Source of the DNA: a virus
Length of the DNA: 29,425 nt
Strand: one strand, 5' to 3'
Virus record (IMG/VR): IMGVR_UViG_3300037245_000923
Location: 1 to 29,425 of that record
The notes below the pieces were generated by a model. That model was not told the origin of the DNA. It saw nothing but the letters and a program-made list of their open reading frames with translations, and made no database searches. The translations under genes and the position numbers were made by a program. Positions within the stretch are counted from its first letter, which is position 1; every line of letters begins with the position of its first letter. Below, piece after piece: positions 3,370-27,153 of this stretch.

Positions 3370-3947
3370 TTTGTTTTTATTTGGTTCATTTCGTGCTGAA
3401 TATCAGCTTCAGTTTTCCACTTGACCAGAATTGTAAATATTTCCGAATAGTTCATATTCATATATTTTTTATATAAATGTGGACGCTTGTTTGTTAACTG
3501 GTCAAGCGTGTTATATATCCCAAATTTAGACATTCTTTCCGAACCTTGCACTTGTTCCCACTTAAAATCTGAATACGAAGCCGCCAGCCCGTTCTTTTCA
3601 GCTTCCACAATTGTCTGTAATTGCTGACGAATAGAAGCCGTAAGCCCAAAGAATTCAATTATAGGCATACGTGATATTTTATCATTAAATCCTAGAATTC
3701 TTGGTAAAAATCTTTGCTTTCTCACTCTCTGTACTTTCCTGATAATAAAAACTAAATCAGCATCACTCCCCGAATTAATCATCCTTTTAAACATTTCAAC
3801 ATGCTTCAGCTTCATATTCATTATTTTTCGCTTTGTCGCAAGCGGATTTAAATAACGAAGTACAACGAGATATTCTTCAATTAATTCCGGCGATTGATCT
3901 AAGAAGTCAATCATTTTAAAATTTTCTATTGATTTGAGTTTTTCCAT
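3366..3947 (-). CDS. Hypothetical phage protein downstream of terminase
   Basis: 193 residues, basic and largely helical (MEKLKSIENFKMIDFLDQ...). Many Lys/Arg residues (FIIRKVQRVRKQRF, residues about 67-80) suggest contact with nucleic acid or with acidic partners. It starts 3 bases after the large-terminase stop and is coupled by ATGA to the membrane peptide that follows. No domain was recognised. A packaging-accessory or tail-assembly role is possible from position only. Confidence 0.5.
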   Translation of the reverse strand: MEKLKSIENFKMIDFLDQSPELIEEYLVVLRYLNPLATKRKIMNMKLKHVEMFKRMINSGSDADLVFIIRKVQRVRKQRFLPRILGFNDKISRMPIIEFFGLTASIRQQLQTIVEAEKNGLAASYSDFKWEQVQGSERMSKFGIYNTLDQLTNKRPHLYKKYMNMNYSEIFTILVKWKTEADIQHEMNQIKTK

Positions 3948-3949
3948 TC

Positions 3950-5389
3950 TTATTTTACAAAGCTAAATGAATTGGCCATTCCTTCGGTGTAATCAAAATA
4001 TTTCCTCATAAGCATTAAATCACGCCAATCCGGTGAACGACCAATATTTTCTTTTACTATTGCCTTTGTCGTTATCGCTAATTTGTCATTAATATTCGGG
4101 TCTTGTTCTATACTTCCTAGTTCTTCAATTATTTCTTCTTTTTCTTCAGTTGAAATTTCGGCTGTAATATTTATTTCATTTCTATTAATCTTTTCCGCCA
4201 ATCCGAAAGCGCACTGGTTTTGTAGGTTCTTGTATTTTGGAACTTTCAGGCTTGAATTTGTTACTTTTTCCTTGAATGGAGTTGAACCGTTTACAAATCC
4301 CTGTATTCCGCAATTATCAACAACGCCGCCCCCGACGCCGTCTTCGTCAGCTACGCAATTATGTTTCGTAATTCCGTGTTTTATCCTCAGTGCAATAATA
4401 GCCGCCTGAATTTCCGTCGTCTTAGACTTATCGAAGCTTATCACTTCGACCAAGTCCCAACCATACCAGACGCCTATTCGCGCTTTGTCAGAACCGAACC
4501 TGGCAATGTCAGCAGTCAAGTATTTGTCCGAACCTCTTATGATATGGTCGTTTTTAAAAACCGCTGTAATATTATCGTAAGAACATAACGCGTAAGGATT
4601 GTCGTCATATTCGAAATTACCATAAATCTGACGTTCAATTGTTACTTTGTCAGCAGTAACCAGCATGTCTTTAATCCATTCTTTCACTGCTGGGTTTGGG
4701 TTGTCGCTTGGTAATGCCTGAATAAATTTAATATGACTTTTTTCTTGACCTTTCCGCCACGGTGCATAGTATCTAGTATAGATGTGGTTCTTTTGCGGGT
4801 TGAAAGTTTCAAGCTGTTTTCTTTTTAATCCGTACTTTTCATTATTGCGCCAACCGGTACGCTCAAAAAGCTTGTTAACCACCTTTATATTCGTTTCATT
4901 GCTTTCATCAATTGCCGACCGTGTTAATTCAAGGCCGCCAAACCGTGTATTTAGTGGGTCGCTTGGTTTTGTCTTCGTGTCAATCAACCATATTTTTGAA
5001 AGGTTGTTGAATTTTATGAAATTGTATTTGCTATCATGAATATAATCCTTCTTTGCCTTTAATCCGTAGAATAATAATTGACCGTACAGGGTGACTAGAA
5101 CCGTTTTAGTCAATGTTGTCAATTCTTTTCGACCTAAACCCCACGCTATATCAGGATAAGCCATACAGTCGAAGATAATCGCAACCGCTTCTATTATTGT
5201 TTTTCCGCTTCTTGCGCTGCCCCCGAATCCTAGACTTGTAGTGATATCATCATTCAGTAACTCTAAAGCTCTTATTTGCTTTGAAGTCATATAAAAGTAT
5301 TCACCTGAAGGATATTCGCCGATAGGAATTTCCGAATATTCGCCACGTTTATAAAGTTCTATGTAAACGTCGAATTCAGCTCTGTTCAT
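3950..5389 (-). CDS. terL: Terminase large subunit
   Basis: 479 residues; the packaging motor that pumps DNA through the portal and cuts it. The ATPase domain has a Walker A loop GGSARSGKT at residues 56-64 and a Walker B-like AIDESNE at 159-165. The C-terminal RNase H-fold nuclease shows YLTADIARFGSDKARIGVW (acidic residue D294) and VADEDGVGGG (D348, D350). Domain order and length match Terminase_6-type large subunits. Its ATG overlaps the stop of the small-subunit gene (ATGA), as usual for the pair. It lies late in the operon, after the lysis genes, rather than at the head of the morphogenesis genes. Confidence 0.95.
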   Translation of the reverse strand: MNRAEFDVYIELYKRGEYSEIPIGEYPSGEYFYMTSKQIRALELLNDDITTSLGFGGSARSGKTIIEAVAIIFDCMAYPDIAWGLGRKELTTLTKTVLVTLYGQLLFYGLKAKKDYIHDSKYNFIKFNNLSKIWLIDTKTKPSDPLNTRFGGLELTRSAIDESNETNIKVVNKLFERTGWRNNEKYGLKRKQLETFNPQKNHIYTRYYAPWRKGQEKSHIKFIQALPSDNPNPAVKEWIKDMLVTADKVTIERQIYGNFEYDDNPYALCSYDNITAVFKNDHIIRGSDKYLTADIARFGSDKARIGVWYGWDLVEVISFDKSKTTEIQAAIIALRIKHGITKHNCVADEDGVGGGVVDNCGIQGFVNGSTPFKEKVTNSSLKVPKYKNLQNQCAFGLAEKINRNEINITAEISTEEKEEIIEELGSIEQDPNINDKLAITTKAIVKENIGRSPDWRDLMLMRKYFDYTEGMANSFSFVK

Positions 5390-6431: not shown

Positions 6432-8456
6432 TTACTTAACTTTTCCAAATATTACCTTTTGTCTTGACTCCCAAATTTCATCCAGAACAGGCGAAACCAA
6501 CGGGAAGAACTGCCTGTAATATTTACTATCCGCTACTCTATCCCAAACGAACATATCGCAAAGCGGGTCGCCAGCCGCCAATTTTATTAATTCGGAAGTA
6601 ATAAAGGCTGAAAACTTATTGACGTCATCAAATGCGTAATATTCGCGGGCGCCTACTTTTTCCAGCTTATCGCTTAAATCACCCGTAAAAACATCATGCT
6701 CTAAAAATTCATTGTGAATTTCCGTTGAACTTGCTTTTCCGAGTGAACAAATACCATGATACCAATAAGTCACGGCAACCGTTTTTTGCCAGATCAATCT
6801 ATTGAACGTTTCATAACCACCGTCAGCAAACTTTGTTATTTTATGGTGAATTGATTCGATAGTATGAAGCAAGTCGTCGGTTTGGTGCATTGTTGAAATC
6901 TGCTTATAGTAGAATTCCTTACACGGAGTCAAGGGAAGCGACAAGGCGATTGAAGGCAATTTCACACCGTCCGCGTAAAAGTCTGCCTCGACTAGCTGTT
7001 CGTCACCGTGAACGCCGCCTGTATGATCTGTTGCGCCGTCAACCTTATACGTGCATTCACTTTCACCGTCAACCAGTAATTCAATTCCTTGCGCAATCAT
7101 TATTCCTAAATCATACTTATACAGATACGCTTTATTGATTCTGTATTGTAAGGAATACGCGGCGGGGTCATTCATTTTCACCAATTCAAACCCGACATAA
7201 TAAGATTCATTCCAGCCATAAGAAACATAAATCATAAACTTGTCACTTCCACCGAATCCGTCAACATCCAATTCATAGAAACACTTGCTTTCCATAGATT
7301 GTAATTCCGGCACGTAACCACTTTCAGAAGGTGATATTTCAACGCCACTGTTTACAGCGTCAGCATATAAAAAAGGCGTACTAAATTCGATTAAAGTTCC
7401 CGCTGTATGACTAATCTTAACATTCCTTATCTTTCCTTTGAAGGTACTGTCTGGCGAAATATTATAAGCCGCGCCAATATTTTCAATAACTAAATTAGAA
7501 GCCGTGAATGACTTTTGAAAAATCCCGTTCCTGTACGATTTAACAACTCCCGCTTCAAAACTCAACTTCAATCTAACCGTCAATCCTGTTATTTTTTCCT
7601 GAGCGTTAAACCCGTCCAGCGTCATCCATGTTCCGACTGAATCCCTGACATATAAAAAACCGTTTGTGAAAATTCCTATGTTCGTATTCCCTGTTCCCCG
7701 TTCCCCGAACATTCCCATAGATTCAGCGCCCGGAGTTGTAACGCCTAAATTTTCAAGGATGTAGTCAAATTCGATATAATCACCATTAGCCTGTAATGTC
7801 ACCGCCGCGTCAAAGTCCATTGCTGAACCAACGCCGTTAAAAACAGAATCAAAAGGTCTTATTCCTGTAAGTTGATTTTCTAAATTTTTTCTTATTAATT
7901 CCTTTTCACTTAAATATACAGTCCCGCCGGAAACCGCATCGACATTCCCGTCTTCAACGGCTCCAATGGCTAAAGAAGCATCTTTCACGTAAACCGCCCC
8001 CGTCCAATGATAATATCCATTATTCGAAGAAGTTGGATCATTCGAAACTTTGTAAGAAACAAGAAGCGTTCCCGACCCTGGCAAGTCTGCCAAAGTCGAA
8101 TAAACGACAACGCCTGTTACTTGATTTTCTTCAAGGTTCTGAACCTGTGTTTCCAAATCTGAAACATCACCTTCCAGAACGTCAACCCTTCCTTCTAGCT
8201 GTTCAATGTCGACCTCAGACAAACTAGCCCAAATTACCGTTAATATTGCCTCAATCGTTTCTTCTTGCGTTGCGTAAAACGTACCATCAATTAAAAATTC
8301 ACTGAATCCTGTTGAGTTTACAAGTTGCTGCCTTGTGTCGTAAATTGAATAAATCCCAATAGCCGCCGAGCCTTGCGCCAATGGCTGATAAATTCTTGCA
8401 AGCTGTATTCCGTCAAGCGTGAAATATTTGTCCGATACCGTATTAATTAAAATCAT
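6432..8456 (-). CDS. Tail fibre / receptor-binding protein candidate
   Basis: 674 residues. The N-terminal domain (1-75) probably attaches to the tail. Residues about 78-112 form a heptad coiled coil (IEQLEGRVDVLEGDV then QNLEENQ), typical of trimeric fibres. The phrase YYHWTGAVYVKDAS near 155 is common in fibre linkers. A beta-rich stretch at roughly 200-355, with NGDYIEFDY and VKSYRNGIFQKSF, resembles a concanavalin A/LamG-like sugar-binding domain. The C-terminal half is unrecognised; it has GGVHGDE (about residues 478-484) and several His/Asp residues that could belong to an enzymatic depolymerase or esterase domain, though this is unproven. Being the longest complete gene and lying next to the lysin supports a host-recognition role. 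Confidence 0.7.
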   Translation of the reverse strand: MILINTVSDKYFTLDGIQLARIYQPLAQGSAAIGIYSIYDTRQQLVNSTGFSEFLIDGTFYATQEETIEAILTVIWASLSEVDIEQLEGRVDVLEGDVSDLETQVQNLEENQVTGVVVYSTLADLPGSGTLLVSYKVSNDPTSSNNGYYHWTGAVYVKDASLAIGAVEDGNVDAVSGGTVYLSEKELIRKNLENQLTGIRPFDSVFNGVGSAMDFDAAVTLQANGDYIEFDYILENLGVTTPGAESMGMFGERGTGNTNIGIFTNGFLYVRDSVGTWMTLDGFNAQEKITGLTVRLKLSFEAGVVKSYRNGIFQKSFTASNLVIENIGAAYNISPDSTFKGKIRNVKISHTAGTLIEFSTPFLYADAVNSGVEISPSESGYVPELQSMESKCFYELDVDGFGGSDKFMIYVSYGWNESYYVGFELVKMNDPAAYSLQYRINKAYLYKYDLGIMIAQGIELLVDGESECTYKVDGATDHTGGVHGDEQLVEADFYADGVKLPSIALSLPLTPCKEFYYKQISTMHQTDDLLHTIESIHHKITKFADGGYETFNRLIWQKTVAVTYWYHGICSLGKASSTEIHNEFLEHDVFTGDLSDKLEKVGAREYYAFDDVNKFSAFITSELIKLAAGDPLCDMFVWDRVADSKYYRQFFPLVSPVLDEIWESRQKVIFGKVK

Positions 8457-8457
8457 G

Positions 8458-8670
8458 TTATTTATTTTTGTTTTTTCTTTCCTTAGTTATTAAATACTGG
8501 TCATAAATCTTCATTGATATAAACACAATTGACAATGCCGAAATAACAACTGTTAATATATGATTAAACTGTACTTTTCCAAACCATTCCAGCGTACTAA
8601 ATCCTATGGCTAATAAGGTCGAACCATAGCCAGCATTATTAAAAGCTACATTTTGCATCATATTTTTCAT
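8458..8670 (-). CDS. Small membrane protein (lysis-associated candidate)
   Basis: 70 residues with one clear hydrophobic helix (ILTVVISALSIVFISMKIYD, about residues 38-57), a weaker hydrophobic stretch near residues 18-30, and a strongly basic tail (KERKNKNK). The basic end and size are typical of phage holins or spanin-like accessory proteins. Its ATG overlaps the stop of the upstream membrane protein (ATGA), so the two are probably made together. Which of the two is the holin cannot be told from sequence. Confidence 0.6.
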   Translation of the reverse strand: MKNMMQNVAFNNAGYGSTLLAIGFSTLEWFGKVQFNHILTVVISALSIVFISMKIYDQYLITKERKNKNK

Positions 8671-9059
8671 GGTTTCTTTTTATTCCCAAATTTAGGAATG
8701 ACCGAACTTAGTAAATGATTTCCAAAATAGAAAATGATTATTGAAATAACAGACCATTCAAAAGCTGAAGTTGCCTGAATTAATATTTCCTTTCCTTCAT
8801 ACCACCCTGAAGCCATACCTACTAATCCGACATTGAAAGCAAGGCAATATTGACCAATTACAAGAATTGCAATTATCCGGCGGCTAATGCTTCTCGGCGT
8901 TGATTCGGCGTTCGTGGCCTTCACAAATTCAAGATTCAAGTCAGCGGCTTTTATCGAATACTCGACAATTTCTTCGTTTGTTAATTTCCTTTGGTCAACT
9001 CCTTTAAATACACTGTCAATCGTTTCTTGTAAATTTATTTTTCCTTTGAAAATTCCCAT
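8667..9059 (-). CDS. Holin-like membrane protein
   Basis: 130 residues from ATG at 9059 (MGIFKGKINLQETIDSVFKG). A longer frame back to 9149 would run far into the upstream gene and is not preferred. After a charged N-terminus come hydrophobic segments at about residues 67-83 (IIAILVIGQYCLAFNVG) and 98-119 (SVISIIIFYFGNHLL), then a short basic tail (FGNKKKP). The pattern of ARR-like basic residues before the first helix and W..SIIIFYFG at the end matches three-TM holins of the gene-transfer-agent type. With the M15 peptidase it would form the lysis set. Confidence 0.62.
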   Translation of the reverse strand: MGIFKGKINLQETIDSVFKGVDQRKLTNEEIVEYSIKAADLNLEFVKATNAESTPRSISRRIIAILVIGQYCLAFNVGLVGMASGWYEGKEILIQATSAFEWSVISIIIFYFGNHLLSSVIPKFGNKKKP

Positions 9060-9081
9060 TATACTTCTGTTTAAATTTATA

Positions 9082-9555
9082 CTATTTTTCAACCGGAACA
9101 AACCCTTCTGGAATTTCCGCTTCCGGCACATACGGAAAAACATCAACAATTTTTGAAACCGAAACAGCCGACACGACGAAAGGTATAATCAAATAATCAA
9201 GACTTTCATCAAGTCGCGTCAATGCTTCCTTTATTTCGTCAGCCATTATAAGATAGTAAGAGCGCAACTTCTTTTCCTTTCCGGCTTCTTCGTCAACCGT
9301 CACCAAGTTAGCAGTCATTTTGAACCACCATTCACCAGCTTCGAAAGGAAATATTTCAGCAAACTTTGTTTTCTTAATTTCCTGAATTGAAAATACACCG
9401 CCTTTGACAATTGATAACATTTCTTTTGTCACTCGCGCTTCAGCGTCGGTATAAGAAACAGCATCGAATAAAAAAGCTTCTGTAACAGATTCTTCTTTTC
9501 CGCTTTCAGCTACTTTTACATATTTTACTTTACATTCAAACCACGTTTGGAACAT
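9082..9555 (-). CDS. DUF4494 family protein
   Basis: 157 residues. The pattern WFECKVKYVKV near the start, then FDAVSYTDAEARVTKE (about 29-44), KFAEIFPFEAGEWWFK (about 64-79) and a C-terminal VDVFPYVPEA matches the DUF4494 family, which is found in Bacteroidota genomes and their phages. The biochemical function is unknown. Its presence is one of the better taxonomic hints in the window. It lies between a secreted-type virion gene and the holin-like gene, in the late operon. Confidence 0.8.
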   Translation of the reverse strand: MFQTWFECKVKYVKVAESGKEESVTEAFLFDAVSYTDAEARVTKEMLSIVKGGVFSIQEIKKTKFAEIFPFEAGEWWFKMTANLVTVDEEAGKEKKLRSYYLIMADEIKEALTRLDESLDYLIIPFVVSAVSVSKIVDVFPYVPEAEIPEGFVPVEK

Positions 9556-9572
9556 ATTGATTGATTTTAAAT

Positions 9573-10610
9573 TTATTCTACGGTGTGACCTTCAGCAATT
9601 ATAAATATTTCGTTAATGCTTGTCTGATTATCCTGAACTAATACCTGAATATCTTCACCGGGTTCAATTCGAAGCGTAACCCCCATTTTCGACTGTCCCG
9701 CAAAAGTTAACCTACCGACAAAGCCGTCTTGTCCTTGTACTGGATTCGTAGCTAAATAAGGCGTCCAATCATACATGATACTGGCAAGATCACCATTCGT
9801 TTTAACATTGAAAACATTCCTGTAAATACCGTCTTTCTTTCGCATCACAAGACCACGCGTAAGACCGCCCGCAATATCGCCAAACTTCGACAAATCAACA
9901 GGCGCGTCCGTCATGCAAGTGATTATAATTCTTGTAATATCAAACGCGCTTCCGATTGCCTGTTCGGTATTTCGTAGGCCATAAATAACAGGCGTTACAC
10001 TCCCGTCAACATTCATATTCTTTTCACCTGAAGTCACAAATGAACCAATAGGAAAAGCAAAGTCAAGCGGCGTGTCAACTCCTAATGTATCAACAACCCT
10101 TGTTAGTATATTCGCTAAATAAAAACGATTATCAGGAACGCTAAAGATTGACAAATAACCGCCAACCCTCAACCCCGTCGTATCATCGACAGTGATAAAC
10201 ATATCGCCTATCTCAGCCGCTTCAACTAATGTGTCAGCCCCGACTTCTTTGCTGAAATATGCAATTATTAAAGGAGTGTGTTGATCTTGTATGTTTACAT
10301 CGTTTGAACTCAGTACGCCTATATCTGTAAATAACTGACTCAGTTCATCCCAACTCGTAACGCCCGCCACTTCATCAAAATATCTTGACGAAATCAAATC
10401 TTTGTTTTCATAAATGTTATAAAGCGAAAAGACACGCAATGAATCAACTGCAATATTTCCGGCATACCTCACGCCGTAATGTCCTTGTTTATAATCAACG
10501 TCATTCATCTGGAAGAATCCAACCGTCGGACTTTCTTCAATCGTAAAACGCTGACCGAAACCAGCAATTGAAATTAAGATAATCGAAATAAATAAAAATA
10601 GCTTTTTCAT
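9573..10610 (-). CDS. Virion-cluster protein with Sec signal peptide
   Basis: 345 residues. The first 20 (MKKLFLFISIILISIAGFGQ) form a textbook signal peptide: Lys-Lys, hydrophobic core, and small residues before a cleavage point after G-F-G. The mature part is beta-rich, with TVDDTTGLRVGGYLSIF (about 140-156) and RLTFAGQSKMGVTLRIEPGED near the end, similar to capsid-decoration or baseplate beta domains. Having a signal peptide amid head genes is odd for a virion protein, since assembly is cytoplasmic. It could instead be displayed on the host envelope. It sits just downstream of the connector gene. Confidence 0.6.
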   Translation of the reverse strand: MKKLFLFISIILISIAGFGQRFTIEESPTVGFFQMNDVDYKQGHYGVRYAGNIAVDSLRVFSLYNIYENKDLISSRYFDEVAGVTSWDELSQLFTDIGVLSSNDVNIQDQHTPLIIAYFSKEVGADTLVEAAEIGDMFITVDDTTGLRVGGYLSIFSVPDNRFYLANILTRVVDTLGVDTPLDFAFPIGSFVTSGEKNMNVDGSVTPVIYGLRNTEQAIGSAFDITRIIITCMTDAPVDLSKFGDIAGGLTRGLVMRKKDGIYRNVFNVKTNGDLASIMYDWTPYLATNPVQGQDGFVGRLTFAGQSKMGVTLRIEPGEDIQVLVQDNQTSINEIFIIAEGHTVE

Positions 10611-10621
10611 TTTTGTATGTT

Positions 10622-11131
10622 TTATAGTTTGCTAAATCTTTGAAAATTAAAACTTGTTCCTTGATTCTTATTTTTGCAATAACGGCTGAACAATTCCGGT
10701 TCGGTCAGAATGTATTTTTCAATAAACCTAAATTTTATACCCGCGTCAATCTGGTCTTGTTTTGATAGGTCTTTTAATAGGTTTCTGTCAACAGGCGTGC
10801 CGTCCTGATAATCCTTCGTTACCATTCCAAACGGCGTATCAACAGCGTTCTTTGAATATACATACCTTGCATGCGTGTAGTCTGCCAGAAGCTTCTTAAT
10901 TCCTTGATGCTGGAATTCTTCACCGGAACACTCAAATGTTGAACCGTTCATTAAAGGGAGCCATGCAGTTTCGGCGGAATTTTTAAGAACATCGAAATAA
11001 AAGTCACCAAGAATATTAACCAAGTCCGACTGTTGGGCTAATCCAATATCTTCGTTAATTTTATCTTCGTCAATTTTCTTTGATATATTTCTGAACGTTG
11101 CAAATTCCGCCGGAGTAATTAAATAAGCCAT
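10622..11131 (-). CDS. Head-tail connector-like protein
   Basis: 169 residues, MAYLITPAEFATFRNISKKI..., mostly helical, with KKLLADYTHARYVYSKNAV (about residues 79-97) in the middle. The length, helical content and the pattern of an N-terminal insertion site followed by a tyrosine-rich helix resemble the DUF6712-type and gp6-like connector proteins that bind below the portal. Its place directly after the portal gene, 11 bases downstream, agrees. The exact family is inferred by eye. Confidence 0.6.
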   Translation of the reverse strand: MAYLITPAEFATFRNISKKIDEDKINEDIGLAQQSDLVNILGDFYFDVLKNSAETAWLPLMNGSTFECSGEEFQHQGIKKLLADYTHARYVYSKNAVDTPFGMVTKDYQDGTPVDRNLLKDLSKQDQIDAGIKFRFIEKYILTEPELFSRYCKNKNQGTSFNFQRFSKL

Positions 11132-11142
11132 ATTGTTTAATA

Positions 11143-12507
11143 TTATACCGTTTCTTCTTCGTCAAATCCGCCAATCATTTCTTTTGCCTTCGTGTCAGTA
11201 AATCCATAAATACTTTTCACTACGGCAACGGCGCTTTCTTTTGTAAGCTCACCCGCGTTCACTGACTGAATTAATCCCGCCAAAGCAGTTACACCACCAA
11301 CAGACCCGCGAAGATTCGCTTGTGCCTTCTTATTCACGTTTTTAGCTTCCTTCAGGTCGTCTTCATCAAGGAAAGGATTCTTTATTACTAAACCTTCCGC
11401 AATGGCCTTTTCTTCCTGAAAGTTTTTCATGATTTCAGAAAATGCTTCTTCAAATTGAAGACGGTCTTCTTCGCGACTTTGCCAAAGTTGATTTTGAGCT
11501 TCTTCCAGTTTGCCGCCTGAATCACCTAATGAATTCCCGTCAGTCGAATCAACTAATATTTTGTTAACAGAAAAAGCTTTTGTAATATTCTTTTCCGCTT
11601 GACCGTCTGAGTATTCAAAAAGCTTGTCATTATAGGTTCCTGATAAGTCGTCAATACTTAACTGCTTTGAAATGTCGTCAGTTGCTTGCGCTGTTTCCAG
11701 AAGAAGAACGTCGTTTGAACCTTCAGCGCCGCGCAACTCGTTTAAGTCTTTTTTAAATTCCTTCCTTATGGTGTCGTCTTTAAAAGGCGCAACAGTTAAA
11801 ATTTTTGTATTCAGGAATCCTTTTTCAGAACCGCGACTTCTGAACGTTTGTGAATTCGATTCGAGTAACGCTTCAGATAATACCGGACTTAAATCAGGTA
11901 GAGCATAAATATATGTTTCGTCTTTTTTTATATGAAGGATCTGACCGTTATATTGCGAAATAATATCTTCAATTTTCTTGTCTTTTCCTTTTTCTACTGA
12001 ATTACGAACTTGACCTTCAATGACTTTTTTGTCTGGATTGTAGCGGTCATAAGCCTGGAAGCTTTTGGCGCTGATTTGTTTAGATTTCGACTTATCCCAA
12101 TTATCGTAAACAATGTATTTTCCTGAATAGTTCCTATCGTCAGCATTTCCAACCCTCACGTCAGTAGTTGGAACCACAACAATTGATTTGACGTCAAGAT
12201 TCGCGTCGTAACCTATTTGTAAGAAACAATTGTTTTGCTTTGCATACCAACGCGCCGCAATTCGTAATACTTCATTCAGACTTTGATTCTTACTATTTAC
12301 AATCACATCGCCGGAAGCACCAAACGAAGCGCCGAAGATAGCCTTTGAAACCCTGTCAGAACAAGTTTTTGAAGTTACTGACATACCGACCAAGGCTTCA
12401 ATCAATGAAGGAAAAGCGTTGTCTACACCCCAGTTAAAACACTCGTTGCGTTTATTCGGTTTGATATTTAGAATTGAACCTGAAACTTGTTCGAAATATA
12501 ACTTCAT
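11143..12507 (-). CDS. Phage portal protein
   Basis: 454 residues, the usual length for a portal, which forms the dodecameric DNA channel at one capsid vertex. The N-terminal half contains a wing-like domain with NNCFLQIGYDANLDVKSIVV and then PTTDVRVG around residues 92-118. The C-terminal part contains LGDSGGKLEEAQNQLWQSRE (about 328-347) and a long helix QFEEAFSEIMKNF, the stem and crown helices expected in portals. No signal peptide. It lies upstream of the connector and downstream of a terminator that follows the previous gene, so an internal promoter or read-through is expected. Confidence 0.82.
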   Translation of the reverse strand: MKLYFEQVSGSILNIKPNKRNECFNWGVDNAFPSLIEALVGMSVTSKTCSDRVSKAIFGASFGASGDVIVNSKNQSLNEVLRIAARWYAKQNNCFLQIGYDANLDVKSIVVVPTTDVRVGNADDRNYSGKYIVYDNWDKSKSKQISAKSFQAYDRYNPDKKVIEGQVRNSVEKGKDKKIEDIISQYNGQILHIKKDETYIYALPDLSPVLSEALLESNSQTFRSRGSEKGFLNTKILTVAPFKDDTIRKEFKKDLNELRGAEGSNDVLLLETAQATDDISKQLSIDDLSGTYNDKLFEYSDGQAEKNITKAFSVNKILVDSTDGNSLGDSGGKLEEAQNQLWQSREEDRLQFEEAFSEIMKNFQEEKAIAEGLVIKNPFLDEDDLKEAKNVNKKAQANLRGSVGGVTALAGLIQSVNAGELTKESAVAVVKSIYGFTDTKAKEMIGGFDEEETV

Positions 12508-12526
12508 TTTAATTCTTTTATAAAAA

Positions 12527-12566
12527 AAGGCTTTACCTTACTTTCTTACCAGCAAAATAAAGCCTT
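12527..12566 (-). terminator. Rho-independent terminator on minus strand
   Basis: The nine-base arms at 12527-12535 and 12558-12566 are perfect inverted repeats. Read on the minus strand, the hairpin is followed by seven T residues. The loop is long (22 nt), so efficiency may be partial. It would end or attenuate transcripts of the gene at 12588-13184 just before the portal gene. Confidence 0.65.
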
Positions 12567-12587
12567 ATTGAATATACTTCTTTCTTT

Positions 12588-15783: not shown

Positions 15784-17115
15784 TTATTTTTTATTCAATT
15801 CTTCCCTGGCTGCCATAATTTCAATAGCCTTGTTGCTGTCTTTTTTCTTGAACACTGGAACAGCTCTTGCTTCCGCTTTAAATTCCTTGCTTCCAATCTT
15901 CGCTTTTAAAGAAGTAATTTCATTTTCCTTTTTCAATAGTGCAGCATCATGTTCAGCTTTGATTTCGGCTTTTATCTTTACAGACATTTTACCTTTTAAG
16001 TCTTCAAAGCTTGCTTCTGTTTCTGTTTCAACAACCTGTTCTTCCGAACCAGCAGCCTTCACGCTAACAATTACACCAGCCGCATCCGTAACAACAGAGC
16101 GCCCGTCACCAAGCTTCCATTCACCAGCAGACGCCGCGTAAGGTTCGCCGCCGTTCTCTGTATCCCACGGCTCCAACATTAGCGTTTCGCCCATTTCAAA
16201 AGAAGTACTTGAAGCCTGTACTGACCAAGTAACAACTTCTTTTATTTCTTCAGCTTTCACTTCAGTTTTTTCAGCGTCGGTGTCAGTTTCTTCAGTTTCT
16301 TCTTCCTTTGGTATAATTTCAGTTACAGCACCGCCAACAAACACAAGCGTTGAATCTTCCAGTGAAGGCATAATATAAGAACCGTCCTTGATTGCCGCGC
16401 CGTCAATCGTTGCTTTATCTCCCACTACTGGCGTTCCGTCACTTTCAAGGTCAGTGAATACAATATCAGTTGCGTTTGAATCCTGAAGCGTCAGTTCAGA
16501 AACAACTTCGTTTAAATACGCCGTAATGTCGTCACGTAGTTTTTTAAAGAATCCTTTCTCTTTTGTCATTTTGTCAATATTTGTTTTTTCAATATTCAAT
16601 TCAGCCACTATTTCAGCCACCTTTTCAACCTCAGTTGCAAAACCAAGTTCAACAGCATTTTCGCCAGACACGAAAGTTTCATTGTCAAGTAAATTCCTTA
16701 CCGTTGATTCATCTATATCTAGATGTTCAGAATAAAATTCAATGAATTCGTCTTCAATAACGCGAAGTTCAGCGGCTATTTCTTCAAGTTCTTCAGCAGT
16801 CCCTTCAGTTTTGGCGCGCGCAAAGTGAATCATTAAAGCGTTATCAACGTCTTCAACTATCCTTGTGCTTCCGGCTGCAAATATTTTAGCAGCGATTGAA
16901 TAAGCTTTTCCTGTTTTTGTTGTTACTGGAATTTCAGCGTCAAGATTCTTTATATAATCATAAACAGCTTCACCTTCGTTTTTGTTTCCGCCGTTCGAAT
17001 TTACTTCAACAGTTATTTCCGTCGGGTCTTCAAATGACTTGTATTGACGAATAACATCAAGCAAAGTTTCGCCTTTTGTAATCCTTCCAGATATATAGAT
17101 TTTTGCTTCAGTCAT
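15784..17115 (-). CDS. ClpP-type prohead protease fused to scaffold-like region
   Basis: 443 residues. Residues 1-165 form an S14/ClpP-like serine protease: EVNSNGGNKNEG (37-48) forms the oxyanion-side loop, GKAYSIAAKIFAAGS carries the nucleophile S73, and MIHFARAK carries H97. The remainder is very acidic and includes an EEETEETDTDAEKTEVKAEE stretch (about 266-285) and DGAAIKDGSYIMP and EWKLGDGRSVV beta repeats. It ends in a helical, lysine-rich tail (from about residue 370), as expected for a scaffold with protease attached. The protease would mature the head by removing the scaffold. Stop and start touch the neighbouring genes. Confidence 0.85.
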   Translation of the reverse strand: MTEAKIYISGRITKGETLLDVIRQYKSFEDPTEITVEVNSNGGNKNEGEAVYDYIKNLDAEIPVTTKTGKAYSIAAKIFAAGSTRIVEDVDNALMIHFARAKTEGTAEELEEIAAELRVIEDEFIEFYSEHLDIDESTVRNLLDNETFVSGENAVELGFATEVEKVAEIVAELNIEKTNIDKMTKEKGFFKKLRDDITAYLNEVVSELTLQDSNATDIVFTDLESDGTPVVGDKATIDGAAIKDGSYIMPSLEDSTLVFVGGAVTEIIPKEEETEETDTDAEKTEVKAEEIKEVVTWSVQASSTSFEMGETLMLEPWDTENGGEPYAASAGEWKLGDGRSVVTDAAGVIVSVKAAGSEEQVVETETEASFEDLKGKMSVKIKAEIKAEHDAALLKKENEITSLKAKIGSKEFKAEARAVPVFKKKDSNKAIEIMAAREELNKK

Positions 17116-20350: not shown

Positions 20351-20653
20351 ATGAAAACACTTTCAGAAATGTCAACTGGTCATCTAATCATCGAAGCAAT
20401 TATTTTGTTTGTGGTTATCATTGCGGCTTTTTACATATTGTATTCATTCTTTTGTATATCTAATTGGTTTAATCAAACCAAGACTGGCCGGATAGAATCA
20501 GAACTTCACGCCCGCGACAGATACGCAGCCACCGAAAGACTAATGAACGAAATCAATGCTGGAAAATGCAATCATTCACGAACTTATATTAAAGTCAGAT
20601 TTGGACATTCGTTAATAAAATGCTGCGATTGCAGAAAGATAATTTCAATATAA
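20351..20653 (+). CDS. Membrane protein with C-terminal Cys motif
   Basis: 100 residues. One strong transmembrane helix (IIEAIILFVVIIAAFYILYS, residues 13-32) is followed by a charged region and a Cys/His group (CNHSRTYIKVRFGHSLIKCC, about 73-92, then DCRK) that may bind zinc. An inner-membrane early protein with a cytoplasmic metal site; its role is unknown. Confidence 0.58.
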   Translation: MKTLSEMSTGHLIIEAIILFVVIIAAFYILYSFFCISNWFNQTKTGRIESELHARDRYAATERLMNEINAGKCNHSRTYIKVRFGHSLIKCCDCRKIISI

Positions 20654-20667
20654 TAAAATTCAATCAA

Positions 20668-21309
20668 ATGAGAAAAGGAACCTATTTTACAAAGAAAGAA
20701 CTTGAAATGTTCAACAGCCAAACGCCTATTTTTAGTGGGCAGCAAATGAAAATTATCAACCGGAAAACGCCGGAATCAGAAGTTGAAATCAAAGCGGACA
20801 AGAACGGCTTCAAATACAAGTCAGTAAAAGCCGCTTACATGAAAGCTTTATTAATGTTAGTCACTGGCGGCAATTTCAGTTTTGAGATTAAAGAACAAAT
20901 CTTTTTATCTTCCGCTAAAGAAATAAAAGTAACGGGAACACTGACTATTTTTTCTAACGGCAAAGCATTTATTCGAGAACAGAACGGAAAGGCAGAATCT
21001 AATATACCAGAAGCCAACGCCTTTAAAGCGGCAACAAGCGATTGTGAAAAAAAATGTATGTCTGAATTTGGTTTCTGTTGGGACATTTACGGACAAGAAC
21101 ACGCCGAAAAGAAAAAGGAAGAACAGCCGGAACCAGACCACAAAGAAAAAAAGAAGCTCGAGAAACTTGAACACTTCCTAAATGAAGCCGTCAGCATTGA
21201 AGAAATTACGCATAACTATAATATTCATTTGAAGTCTTCGCCAGAATCAGAACATTCAAAAGCAATCCTGAAAAAACACATGGAACGTCTTGGATTTACT
21301 GAAGCTTAA
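20668..21309 (+). CDS. Rad52-like single-strand annealing protein
   Basis: 213 residues from ATG at 20668 (MRKGTYFTKKELEMFNS); an ATG at 20620 is open but overlaps the preceding gene. The core contains YKSVKAAYMKALLMLVTGGN (about residues 50-69), FSFEIKEQIFLSSAKEIKVT, and the diagnostic helix ANAFKAATSDCEKKCMSEFG (about 116-135) followed by FCWDIYGQ. This is the pattern of Rad52/Sak-type phage annealing proteins that bind single strands and pair homologous DNA. An acidic/basic linker and a small C-terminal helical domain follow. The likely partner is the exonuclease at 24307. The last codons overlap the first element of the cassette island. Confidence 0.75.
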   Translation: MRKGTYFTKKELEMFNSQTPIFSGQQMKIINRKTPESEVEIKADKNGFKYKSVKAAYMKALLMLVTGGNFSFEIKEQIFLSSAKEIKVTGTLTIFSNGKAFIREQNGKAESNIPEANAFKAATSDCEKKCMSEFGFCWDIYGQEHAEKKKEEQPEPDHKEKKKLEKLEHFLNEAVSIEEITHNYNIHLKSSPESEHSKAILKKHMERLGFTEA

Positions 21310-21360
21310 CGACTTGTAAACGGAGTTTGAAATTAAAGAAGTAATTTAAAAATAAGAATT

Positions 21361-21534
21361 ATGTACAAAGAAGTAAAGGTGATAAATGTCACAGACGAAG
21401 ATGATTTTACGAAGAAAGTAAACGAATTGCTAGATTTGGGATGGTGTATATTAAGCACTGATATTGGATTTGTAAATGATAGCCGATATGACTATTGCAG
21501 TTCACATCTAGCAATTATGGCGCTGCCAAAATAA
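21361..21534 (+). CDS. 57-aa ORF in module A
   Basis: MYKEVKVINVTDEDDFTKKV... with NELLDLGWCILSTDIGF, then a terminal strand IMALPK. The strand-helix-GW-strand pattern is like DUF1737-type proteins and like the gene at 18935. It fills loop 1 of module A, where module B carries the methyltransferase. The leader AAGAATTATG is a normal AT-rich start for this phage. Confidence 0.55.
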   Translation: MYKEVKVINVTDEDDFTKKVNELLDLGWCILSTDIGFVNDSRYDYCSSHLAIMALPK

Positions 21535-21568
21535 TTCTTGTTTTTAAATGACGAGAGTTAATTTAAAA

Positions 21569-21792
21569 CTTAGAGGGAGCAATTAAGCACCGCTCCAAAT
21601 TCGGTTTACACATTGTTCAATGTCGTTAATGTAACGGTAAAGCACTGAAGCCCTCTAAGGTTGCACGGGCGTTCAATCTCATGGTATTTCGAGAATGTCG
21701 GAATCTGTTTTTTAAATTTCTTATTTAAAAATAGCGACATGTAGAAATGAACTGCACGGAGTTCTTACGCAGTGGAGTTAATGAGATTGAAC
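21569..21792 (+). ncRNA. Structured non-coding core of module A
   Basis: The gap 21535-21893 has no gene. Stems visible: P1, nine perfect pairs (21569-21577 with 21651-21659); D2 with the right end, 12 perfect pairs (21671-21682 with 21781-21792); inside it ATTTC (21686-21690) with GAAAT, and ATGTC (21695-21699) with GACAT, capped by an AT-rich hairpin (TTTTTTAAAT with ATTTAAAAA). D1-right-end pairing crosses P1, so a pseudoknot is possible. Module B keeps the same stems with different bases. RNA is one explanation; folded DNA at a recombination site is the other. Confidence 0.5.
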
Positions 21793-21893
21793 GGTGCCGT
21801 GTAAACGGAGTTTATATTTTACGAAGAGATTTTTATTCTTAAAGCGAAGCGTGGGATTCTTAAAATCCTTAAATATTTTGAAAAAATATACTT

Positions 21894-22595
21894 ATGAATA
21901 TACTAGAATTATTTGCAGGATCAAGAAGTTTAGGAAACGAAGCTGACAAGCTAGGTCATAACGTTTTCTCGGTAGATTGGACTAAATATAATAAGATCGA
22001 TCTTGCGATTGATATTGAGTATTTAACAAAAGAACAAATACCATTTATTCCTGATGCTGTATGGGCAAGCCCTGATTGTACTACTTATAGTATTGCTGCT
22101 TGTAGTACTCACAGAACTAATACCAAGGATCCTAAAAGTGAGTATGCTATCAAATGTGATCGAGTTAATCAACATTGGATTGCATTGATAAAGGAATGGA
22201 TTGGCATCAATCCGAATATGGTTTTCTTTATTGAGAATCCACGGGGAATGTTAAGACACATGGAATGGATGCAAGAGTTTAAAAGACATACTATCTGGTA
22301 TTGCCAGTATGGAGATGATCGAGCAAAGCCGACTGATATTTGGACAAATAGTAATAATTGGCAACCACGCCCAATGTGCAAGAATTACAAATATGATACA
22401 CAAGGGAATATTATTAACAGGCACTGCCACCACGAAAGTGCAAGGCGCGGAGCTAAAACAGGAACACAGGGTAAGAAAGGAAGTTATAGTAGAAGTAAGA
22501 TTCCAAGTGAGTTGTGTATTGAAATCCTAAATACTTTTGAAAAAAGTATAGCGCGAGGGGGCTTTAAGAATAAAAATATCGGGAGTAAAATGTAA
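21894..22595 (+). CDS. Cytosine methyltransferase-like protein
   Basis: 233 residues. Motif I LELFAGSRS (5-13) binds the methyl donor; the motif IV equivalent reads ASPDCTTYS (58-66), with C62 as presumed nucleophile but P-D-C in place of the usual P-C; ENPRG (114-118) replaces motif VI ENV; CQYGDDRAKPTDIWTN (137-152) matches motif VIII of phage C5-type enzymes. It is short for a C5 methyltransferase and lacks an obvious target-recognition domain, though 160-233 is basic and holds Cys and His. By eye its codon use differs from its operon neighbours (more AGA, ATA and GAT). It sits in loop 1 of module B with a seven-pair AT hairpin (21873-21889) just before the ATG. Host-restriction evasion is likely; it could also be inactive. 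Confidence 0.8.
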   Translation: MNILELFAGSRSLGNEADKLGHNVFSVDWTKYNKIDLAIDIEYLTKEQIPFIPDAVWASPDCTTYSIAACSTHRTNTKDPKSEYAIKCDRVNQHWIALIKEWIGINPNMVFFIENPRGMLRHMEWMQEFKRHTIWYCQYGDDRAKPTDIWTNSNNWQPRPMCKNYKYDTQGNIINRHCHHESARRGAKTGTQGKKGSYSRSKIPSELCIEILNTFEKSIARGGFKNKNIGSKM

Positions 22596-22597
22596 AG

Positions 22598-22807
22598 TTG
22601 AAGGGAACCAGTTGTGCTGCCGCTAAATTCGGTTTACACTGTGTTAGATTCAGTTGACTCACGAGCATAGTGCTGCTACCCTTCAAGGTTACACGGCACC
22701 GTTAGATTCAATGGTATTTCGGGAATGTCAGAATCTGAAATTATTTCGTGTAATTTTAGTGACATGGAGAAATAGACGAACCCTTCAGTGAGTCAATTGA
22801 ATCTAAC
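22598..22807 (+). ncRNA. Structured non-coding core of module B
   Basis: The gap 22596-23032 has no gene; its first half is this core. P1 pairs TTGAAGGG (22598-22605) with CCCTTCAA (22679-22686). D2 (22701-22712) pairs perfectly with 22796-22807. Inside are ATTTC/GAAAT, ATGTC/GACAT and a hairpin AAATTA...TAATTTT. Compared with module A, the P1 and D2 stems have changed on both strands, while unpaired stretches such as GGTATTTCG and GAATCTG are conserved. This is the signature of selected base pairing. Confidence 0.5.
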
Positions 22808-23267
22808 GTTCGACCTGTATGTGATGAAAAAACGAAGGGATTAAAACTTCTTGTTTTAAAGACCGAAAGTTTTGTAAGCACATTTGGATTTGCCACTCAA
22901 ATTGTGCTGCTGTACTTCGTTTATTTGGCATATTACAGAGTGTTATGCTTAGCCTCGACCGACGGGCAAATACAAGGGTCGAACGTTATGGCTTAATCGA
23001 TTTTTGTAGGGAATTTTTAAACTTTTTAAATTATGAAAATAGAATTTATTACAACAGGAGAGAAGATCGAGAAAGTTAATTATTTGCTGTCATTGGCAAT
23101 TGATGCTGCCAGAGATAATGAACTATTTAGGCAGGATGCCGGATTGTCATTATCGGACTTATCTAAGATGGAATCGTTTAGAAAACAGATGTTGAGAGGG
23201 TATTTTAAAAAGTTTAAAAGTGGAAACAAAAACGCACGACGGTAGGAGGGCGAGATTAAGCCATAAC
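22808..23267 (+). mobile_element. Cassette-like module C (with 70-aa ORF)
   Basis: Third module. Left end GTTCGACC (22808-22815), right end GATTAAGCCATAAC (23254-23267); the joined reverse complement is continuous inside at 22977-22998, 22 of 22 bases. A second copy (D1) is GTTATGCTTAGCCTCGACC (22942-22960). P1 is ATTTGCC (22888-22894) with GGCAAAT (22965-22971). The S1 arm pairs CTGTA and AAACGAAG after the left end with CTTCGTTT (22915-22922) and TACAG (22934-22938). Loop 1 has no gene, only a seven-pair hairpin (22841-22859); loop 2 holds the 70-aa ORF where A and B hold hairpins. The 22808-23032 stretch is thus non-coding but structured. Confidence 0.6.
23033..23245 (+). CDS. 70-aa ORF in module C
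   Basis: MKIEFITTGEKIEKVNYLLS..., helical with a very basic C-terminus (LRGYFKKFKSGNKNARR). It could bind nucleic acid; no family recognised. It lies in loop 2 of module C, ends with TAG at 23243-23245, and is followed within a few bases by the module's right end. The leader is AT-rich (TTTTTAAATT ATG). Confidence 0.5.
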   Translation: MKIEFITTGEKIEKVNYLLSLAIDAARDNELFRQDAGLSLSDLSKMESFRKQMLRGYFKKFKSGNKNARR

Positions 23268-23298
23268 TTGTTTATATATTCACTTTTACTTCCTATTC

Positions 23299-26781: not shown

Positions 26782-27153
26782 ATGAAAAAGCTACAATTAC
26801 CCGAAAGCCAAATTCAGGAAGTTCTTTATGAATTAATCAATCGGCTTTCAATTGACCGAAAAACAATGATGCTGTCTTCAGGCGTCTGGAACCTGACAGC
26901 AAGAATCGCAGACCTAAGAAGGAAAGGCGTTCTTGTTAATTCAAATCCGCTTGTTGGCGTGAATAAGTACGGAAGGCAAATTGATTTTGTAAATTATAGT
27001 ATTTCGGATAAGAAAAGCGCTGTTATTATTTACGAAAGAATGAAAGACAATCAGCGGAAAAAGGTTTGTTCAAATCCGTTCTATGATTTTGGAGACTGCG
27101 AAGTTCAGGATAAACAAGGCTGTCTTTCTTGTGAATGGTTTCAAAATCGCTAA
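26782..27153 (+). CDS. Winged-helix-like protein with Cys-rich tail
   Basis: 123 residues. Residues 10-52 (VLYELINRLSIDRKTMMLSS, then LTARIADLRRKGVLV) fit a phage winged helix (HTH_55-like). After this comes YGRQIDFVNYSI and a Cys-rich end (VCSNPFYDFGDC, GCLSCEWF) that may bind zinc. Likely DNA-binding; target unknown. Confidence 0.6.
   Translation: MKKLQLPESQIQEVLYELINRLSIDRKTMMLSSGVWNLTARIADLRRKGVLVNSNPLVGVNKYGRQIDFVNYSISDKKSAVIIYERMKDNQRKKVCSNPFYDFGDCEVQDKQGCLSCEWFQNR

Follow-up and report, generated by a model that had tools for sequence, protein, structure and literature searches.

Abutting modules in a viral genome fragment as probable gene cassettes of an integron-like system

What kind of element carries, inside itself, the reverse complement of its own two ends joined together? 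The question is raised by a stretch of viral DNA of 29,425 nucleotides (nt; IMG/VR record IMGVR_UViG_3300037245_000923, positions 1 to 29,425, here called the window), in which three modules, A, B and C, follow one another within positions 21311-23267. As the initial annotation had placed them, the modules touch with zero bases between them at 21792/21793 and 22807/22808. We consider A, B and C to be mobile gene cassettes of an integron-like system, with a probability of roughly 0.85. Each cassette would consist of one small open reading frame (ORF) and a split recombination site.

Junction complementarity and the folded site

In module B, positions 22689-22712 were the reverse complement of 22796-22807 joined to 21793-21804 (24/24), and in module C positions 22977-22998 were the reverse complement of 23254-23267 joined to 22808-22815 (22/22), exactly as had been reported. 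In module A the end half was matched perfectly (21671-21682, 12/12), but the start half gave only 5 Watson-Crick pairs and 1 wobble pair out of 12. AAC terminated all three modules, and because every module ends in AAC, a crossover can be placed only within the shared triplet.

For comparison, a motif scan yielded L001, L002, L003 and L009, and the set of modules with the long type of site beyond the window comprised four modules on three other phage contigs (L002, L035 and two in L036). The end half matched at 12 of 12 positions in 7/7 of the modules compared. When the seven guides and seven junctions were paired in all possible ways, the own-junction total of 155 was equalled by 1/5040 pairings, namely the true one. 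Judged from these sequences, the junction complementarity is not due to chance. The start halves were mismatched in A and in the L035 module, and both starts look as if they had been exchanged or had drifted. Drift of the internal copies independently of the ends, which the initial annotation had named as a sign against its reading, was thus seen in part, in these two start halves. As far as sequence can tell, the composite match is sensible only if the two ends of a module meet, as in a circular cassette. This favors the suggestion that modules circularise, whereas the proposed internal guide most plausibly represents the left arm of an attC-like hairpin rather than a guiding element in its own right. 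The parts of the array are listed here, with protein lengths in amino acids (aa).

20620-21309, plus strand: phage gene immediately before the array, with a stop codon that overlaps the first AAC border
21311-21792, plus strand: cassette A; ends in GAAC with G across the border; internal copy perfect in the end half, not in the start half
21361-21534, plus strand: 57-aa ORF of cassette A, no assigned function
21570-21658, plus strand: structured domain of A, with stem 21570-21577/21651-21658 around the first left arm (21604-21624)
21659-21682, plus strand: second left arm ("guide") of A
21683-21707, plus strand: conserved motif of the long-site hairpin, copy A
21781-21792, plus strand: right arm of A (cassette end)
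21793-22807, plus strand: cassette B
21793-21806, plus strand: start of B, outer arm, which pairs with both left arms
21894-22595, plus strand: 233-aa ORF of cassette B, DNA methyltransferase-like (phrog_757, E 7e-26; no Pfam match)
22598-22686, plus strand: structured domain of B, with stem 22598-22605/22679-22686 enclosing the first left arm
22689-22712, plus strand: second left arm ("guide") of B, 24/24
22713-22776, plus strand: conserved inner hairpin of B with GGTATTTCGGGAATGTCAGAATCTG
22788-22807, plus strand: right arm of B (cassette end)
22808-23267, plus strand: cassette C, with its ORF within the hairpin loop
22888-22971, plus strand: structured domain of C, with stem 22888-22894/22965-22971 around the first left arm (~22928-22951)
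22977-22998, plus strand: second left arm ("guide") of C, 22/22
23033-23245, plus strand: 70-aa ORF of cassette C, no assigned function
23254-23267, plus strand: right arm of C (cassette end)
23268-23277, plus strand: TTGTTTATAT, possible attI-like flank; the same 10 bases stand after a Chryseobacterium plasmid array

Each window module had an additional, shorter complementary arm upstream of the guide (21604-21624, 22632-22662 and ~22928-22951), which was absent from the initial annotation. This earlier arm was complementary to the same two module ends, with a spacer of 3 bases against 6 at the module start. In B it reads GTTTACAC-TGT-GTTAGATTCAGTTGACTCAC, where 22632-22639 pairs with the cassette start and 22643-22662 with the cassette end. 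A covarying stem encloses the earlier arm, and its pairing was kept with different sequences in each module (TTAGAGGG/CCCTCTAA, TTGAAGGG/CCCTTCAA, ATTTGCC/GGCAAAT and CTTAACCC/GGGTTAAG, plus others). A hairpin with GGTATTTCGRGAATGTCRGAATCTG, which like this stem had not been noted in the initial annotation, was conserved in A and B. When the B site was joined to its own start, an input that favors such a stem, the optimal fold contained a 24-base-pair (bp) stem with a z of -7.6. At both gathering and relaxed thresholds, Rfam gave zero matches.

The long type of site holds an attC-like arm with an asymmetric spacer plus an arm that is free of bulges. We see an even chance that the second, bulge-free arm competes with the first and so closes the site, since full pairing of spacer and core would remove the bulges that the folded site needs. 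It was also considered whether the second arm is a transcription terminator or attenuator between cassettes and has no part in recombination. A stable hairpin does lie close to the end of each cassette, but a terminator has no need to be complementary to the cassette start, a sequence as far as 1 kb away that covaries with the arm, and this explanation is unlikely.

Cassette arrays beside tyrosine recombinase genes

Rows of abutting cassettes immediately preceding a tyrosine recombinase gene were found in L002, L035, L038 and the cultured Polaribacter phages Leef_1 and Freya; the viral records compared are fragments. The majority of these recombinase-linked cassettes had a simpler site than those in the window. 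It consists of an inner helix (GTT.../...AAC) of 9-28 bp, an asymmetric internal loop (~2-3 bases on one side, 5-6 on the other), and an outer helix of ~10-20 bp that is formed with the cassette start. Nearly all of 19 simple-type cassettes had both helices, inner and outer, together with small asymmetric loops. The ORF preceded the left arm, followed it or ran through it. In simple cassettes of L035 and L036, the left arms were translated within ORFs (LHLQNVSG, MHFVSN and LHKNVVSG), so that recombination site and coding sequence overlap. A scan for self-junctions in eight array regions gave 29 matches; the same regions gave 2 when reversed and 0 when complemented. The scanner was specific only with a higher threshold and a fixed loop asymmetry, applied to array regions; a first version that allowed wrong starts found as many reversed as forward matches over the whole window.

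The recombinases linked to arrays in the other phages were 266-287 aa long and XerA/XerD-like, and the catalytic residues R, K, H, R, H and Y were aligned in most of them. The nearest protein families were NF040815, TIGR02225 and TIGR02224, all with scores under the curated cut-offs, together with PDB entries 4a8e and 5hxy. The segment that IntI carries between K and HxxR (alignment columns ~198-228) was absent from six array-linked or related phage recombinases, and the TIGR02249 scores of the phage recombinases were 96-157 bits against a cut-off of 265. Clear cassette arrays were not found at the recombinase relatives L040-L042 and L050 or at the plasmid loci L067 and L068. The last of these, on an Acinetobacter plasmid, has a short recombinase (L068:2046-2711) beside tet(X3) that is 48% identical to the L038 recombinase, and no cassette sites were found at this locus.

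Several further observations were made. The third cassette of L002 (1281-1579) looked chimeric, with a methyltransferase-like N-terminus running into the second arm and a start that mismatches the guide. The virulent Polaribacter phage P12002L (L064), known for two attC calls, apparently carries several further cassettes of the present type on the minus strand at 7450-9174 and 16691-17049. On Chryseobacterium plasmid NZ_CP041688 (L066, ~7930-12577), three near-identical ORF-less modules of 172 bp followed the junction rule without a bulge; they adjoin a 347-aa recombinase, and the array contains or adjoins an IS110 transposase and a group II intron. The ten bases 3' of C, TTGTTTATAT, also follow the last cassette of a Chryseobacterium plasmid array beside a related recombinase. 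Loose motif matches in L006, L007, L008, L010, L011 and the genome match L012 lacked the arms and were rejected as chance. When the DNA of the window block was compared with phage records, the sole similarity was a 90-nt match inside the methyltransferase ORF.

Gain and loss of cassettes among isolates and relatives

Cultured Polaribacter phages were decisive for the cassette reading. The genomes of Freya_1, 2, 5, 6, 8, 9 and 10 were identical over the compared region except for one block immediately before the recombinase gene. This block measured 0, 842, 842+902 and more bases, it always consisted of whole cassettes, and all joins were at AAC borders. The 307-bp difference between Freya_10 and Freya_9 was the module 3794-4100, which had been predicted before the genomes were compared. 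Freya_6 had a different cassette of 472 bp at the same recombinase-proximal place, and an internal 902-bp cassette was absent from Freya_8. The new cassettes were located next to the recombinase, giving insertion a polarity. The right flank, ACCCCTATAACAACAATAAG, was constant and was abutted by the variable cassettes; in this sequence comparison, it behaves as an attI.

A second case was found in the Danklef phages, where a 781-bp adenine-methylase cassette at an AAC border was present in Danklef_1 and 5 and absent from Danklef_2, 3 and 4. The integrase gene was broken in Danklef_1-5 (L059-L063), with only a 132-bp C-terminal ORF annotated and an opposite-strand ORF covering part of the rest. 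The methylase cassette may have moved in trans, or its movement may be older than the break. The comparison of related phages for single modules, which had been recommended earlier, thus revealed gain and loss with exactly the predicted borders in both Freya and Danklef. The window phage itself had three syntenic relatives (L069, L070 and L071; flanking proteins 53-71% identical) with no cassettes between the same two genes; homologues of the gene at 20620-21309 had the same location. Relatives that always carry the 2-kb block unchanged, the pattern held to speak against the initial annotation, were therefore not what was seen. The record of L071 (G007) contained a 274-aa recombinase of the same family (L074, 5295-6119, minus strand) at another locus of the contig, next to a homologue of the window gene 26782-27153, and the scan gave no clear cassettes there.

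It is quite improbable that the recombinase merely serves as a normal prophage integrase while the cassette differences arose by recombination, homologous or through short homology, at inverted repeats that recur. The enzyme was annotated as an integrase that implies a temperate lifestyle (PMC8776804), and the joins share 3-4 bases. However, five different Freya joins and one Danklef join were all at AAC borders of the predicted kind, unrelated new cassettes entered at one fixed place, and the same layout recurred in several unrelated phages.

Some observations weigh against a cassette system in the window. The mobile cassettes of Freya and Danklef are of the simple type, and the long type was not caught excising. 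The indels share 3-4 border bases, so illegitimate recombination is possible for any single event, and in A the start and the guide are mismatched. Ordinary prophage integration, the role that Bartlau et al. assumed (PMC8776804), would also suit the recombinases. No recombinase was found in the window record, which is a fragment, so the array would either lack its own recombinase and be moved in trans or be moved by one beyond the fragment.

Strand bias, proposed mechanism and relation to integrons

When G-T and A-C were scored alike in the 19 simple cassettes, the ORF strand gave 65 G-T versus 12 A-C, and non-border controls with the same scoring gave 581 versus 506. The excess of G-T suggested that the ORF-sense strand is selected to fold, as single-stranded DNA or as RNA. 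On the opposite strand, the order within a cassette is GTT ... R''-spacer-L'' ... L'-spacer, followed across the border by the GTT of the next cassette; apart from the inverted gene, integron cassettes are arranged in this way. We propose that the cassette end (R', ...AAC) and the start (spacer and L') would be adjacent only in an excised circle, and that the internal left arm (L''-spacer-R'', GTT...) would pair with this junction, so that the ORF-sense strand, presumably single-stranded, folds into an attC-like hairpin. The tyrosine recombinase would exchange strands at the AAC/GTT core, the cassette circle would be excised, and it would be reinserted at a fixed attI-like site.

An IS110-like, RNA-guided recombination, in which the internal copy serves as guide RNA for the joined ends and a DEDD recombinase is supplied in trans, would share some of these properties. 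The bridge RNAs of IS110 likewise recognise a donor junction found solely in the circular form, and the long site folds well (z -7.6). However, the internal copy forms an uninterrupted antiparallel complement of one of the strands, in contrast to the split loops of bridge RNAs, a Transposase_20 match was present in 0/6 array-bearing records, some of them fragments, and the arrays were linked instead to tyrosine recombinases, which makes this mechanism very improbable. Least probable of all is a self-splicing or circularising RNA (a group I-like internal guide sequence or a permuted intron, with the guide aligning the transcript ends to turn modules into circular RNA), for although the guide is complementary to both ends, the fold is strong and sense-strand wobble pairs are kept as RNA would also require, there was no Rfam match and gain and loss occur in DNA at the same borders.

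The proposed cassettes resemble those of IntI integrons in being tandem and abutting, mostly with one ORF each, and in their exact borders. The site resembles attC in having two arms, one of which crosses the circular junction, a GTT/AAC core and an unpaired asymmetric spacer. Insertion at a fixed site beside the recombinase gene, with ordered gain and internal loss, is likewise as in integrons; an attI-like site was found in Freya, and the window offers only the similarity of its 10-base flank. In contrast to classical attC, where the paired R arm is 7 bp, the present R arm is 9-28 bp, and the ORF lies in or across the hairpin and is inverted relative to attC. The R box RYYYAAC / GTTRRRY was not general and only AAC/GTT was shared; B fits this consensus, and A and C do not. 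The closest protein families are the short tyrosine recombinases XerA, XerC and XerD, but Xer enzymes act on dif and not on cassettes. The classical criterion for an integron is an IntI recombinase with an extra domain near the C-terminus (PMC9024848), which the present recombinases lack. Although the system behaves like an integron, we do not class it as a classical one because the IntI-specific domain is absent and the R-box consensus is not followed. In Treponema chromosomal integrons, a true IntI points toward attI with the cassettes downstream, and there too the integrase is transcribed in the direction of the cassette genes (PMC3607928); the present cassettes lie upstream of a recombinase gene that points away.

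The feature had been taken as new to phages, which is not wholly so since phage integrons and attC clusters were reported by Qi et al. 2023 (PMC9892861). That paper called two sites in P12002L by attC models, with no resident recombinase, and one of them recombined with IntI1; the sections consulted do not describe the junction rule, the arm of the long type or the Freya variation. The tie to integrons is strong all the same, for P12002L has a series of cassettes built like the present ones, to which the IntI1-usable site may belong. The study that isolated Freya and Danklef (PMC8776804) reports a size range and an integrase, and the words integron and cassette are absent from its text. No description of this type of cassette system was found in the open-access PMC papers searched; a paper on crAss-like phages that mentions integrons was irrelevant.

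Some phages thus seem to collect genes by an integron-like system that escapes the standard definitions. In Bacteroidetes almost no complete integrons have been recognised, with one Salinibacter case named in the IntegronFinder 2.0 survey (PMC9024848), and in phages they are rare. We give about equal weight for and against the broader idea that phages and plasmids of Bacteroidota hold a separate integron-like lineage, in which short non-IntI recombinases evolved cassette capture via folded sites, many annotated phage "integrases" of the phylum serve gene capture and not lysogeny, and the second arm of the long type is an open/close switch. If the cassette model is true, a non-IntI cassette system is active among co-isolated cultured phages, and Freya and Danklef allow it to be tested directly. 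Cassette capture would then be possible without the IntI-specific domain, the reading of an integrase as a mark of a temperate phage would need correction, and the rapid replacement of small phage genes, DNA methylases among them, would be explained.
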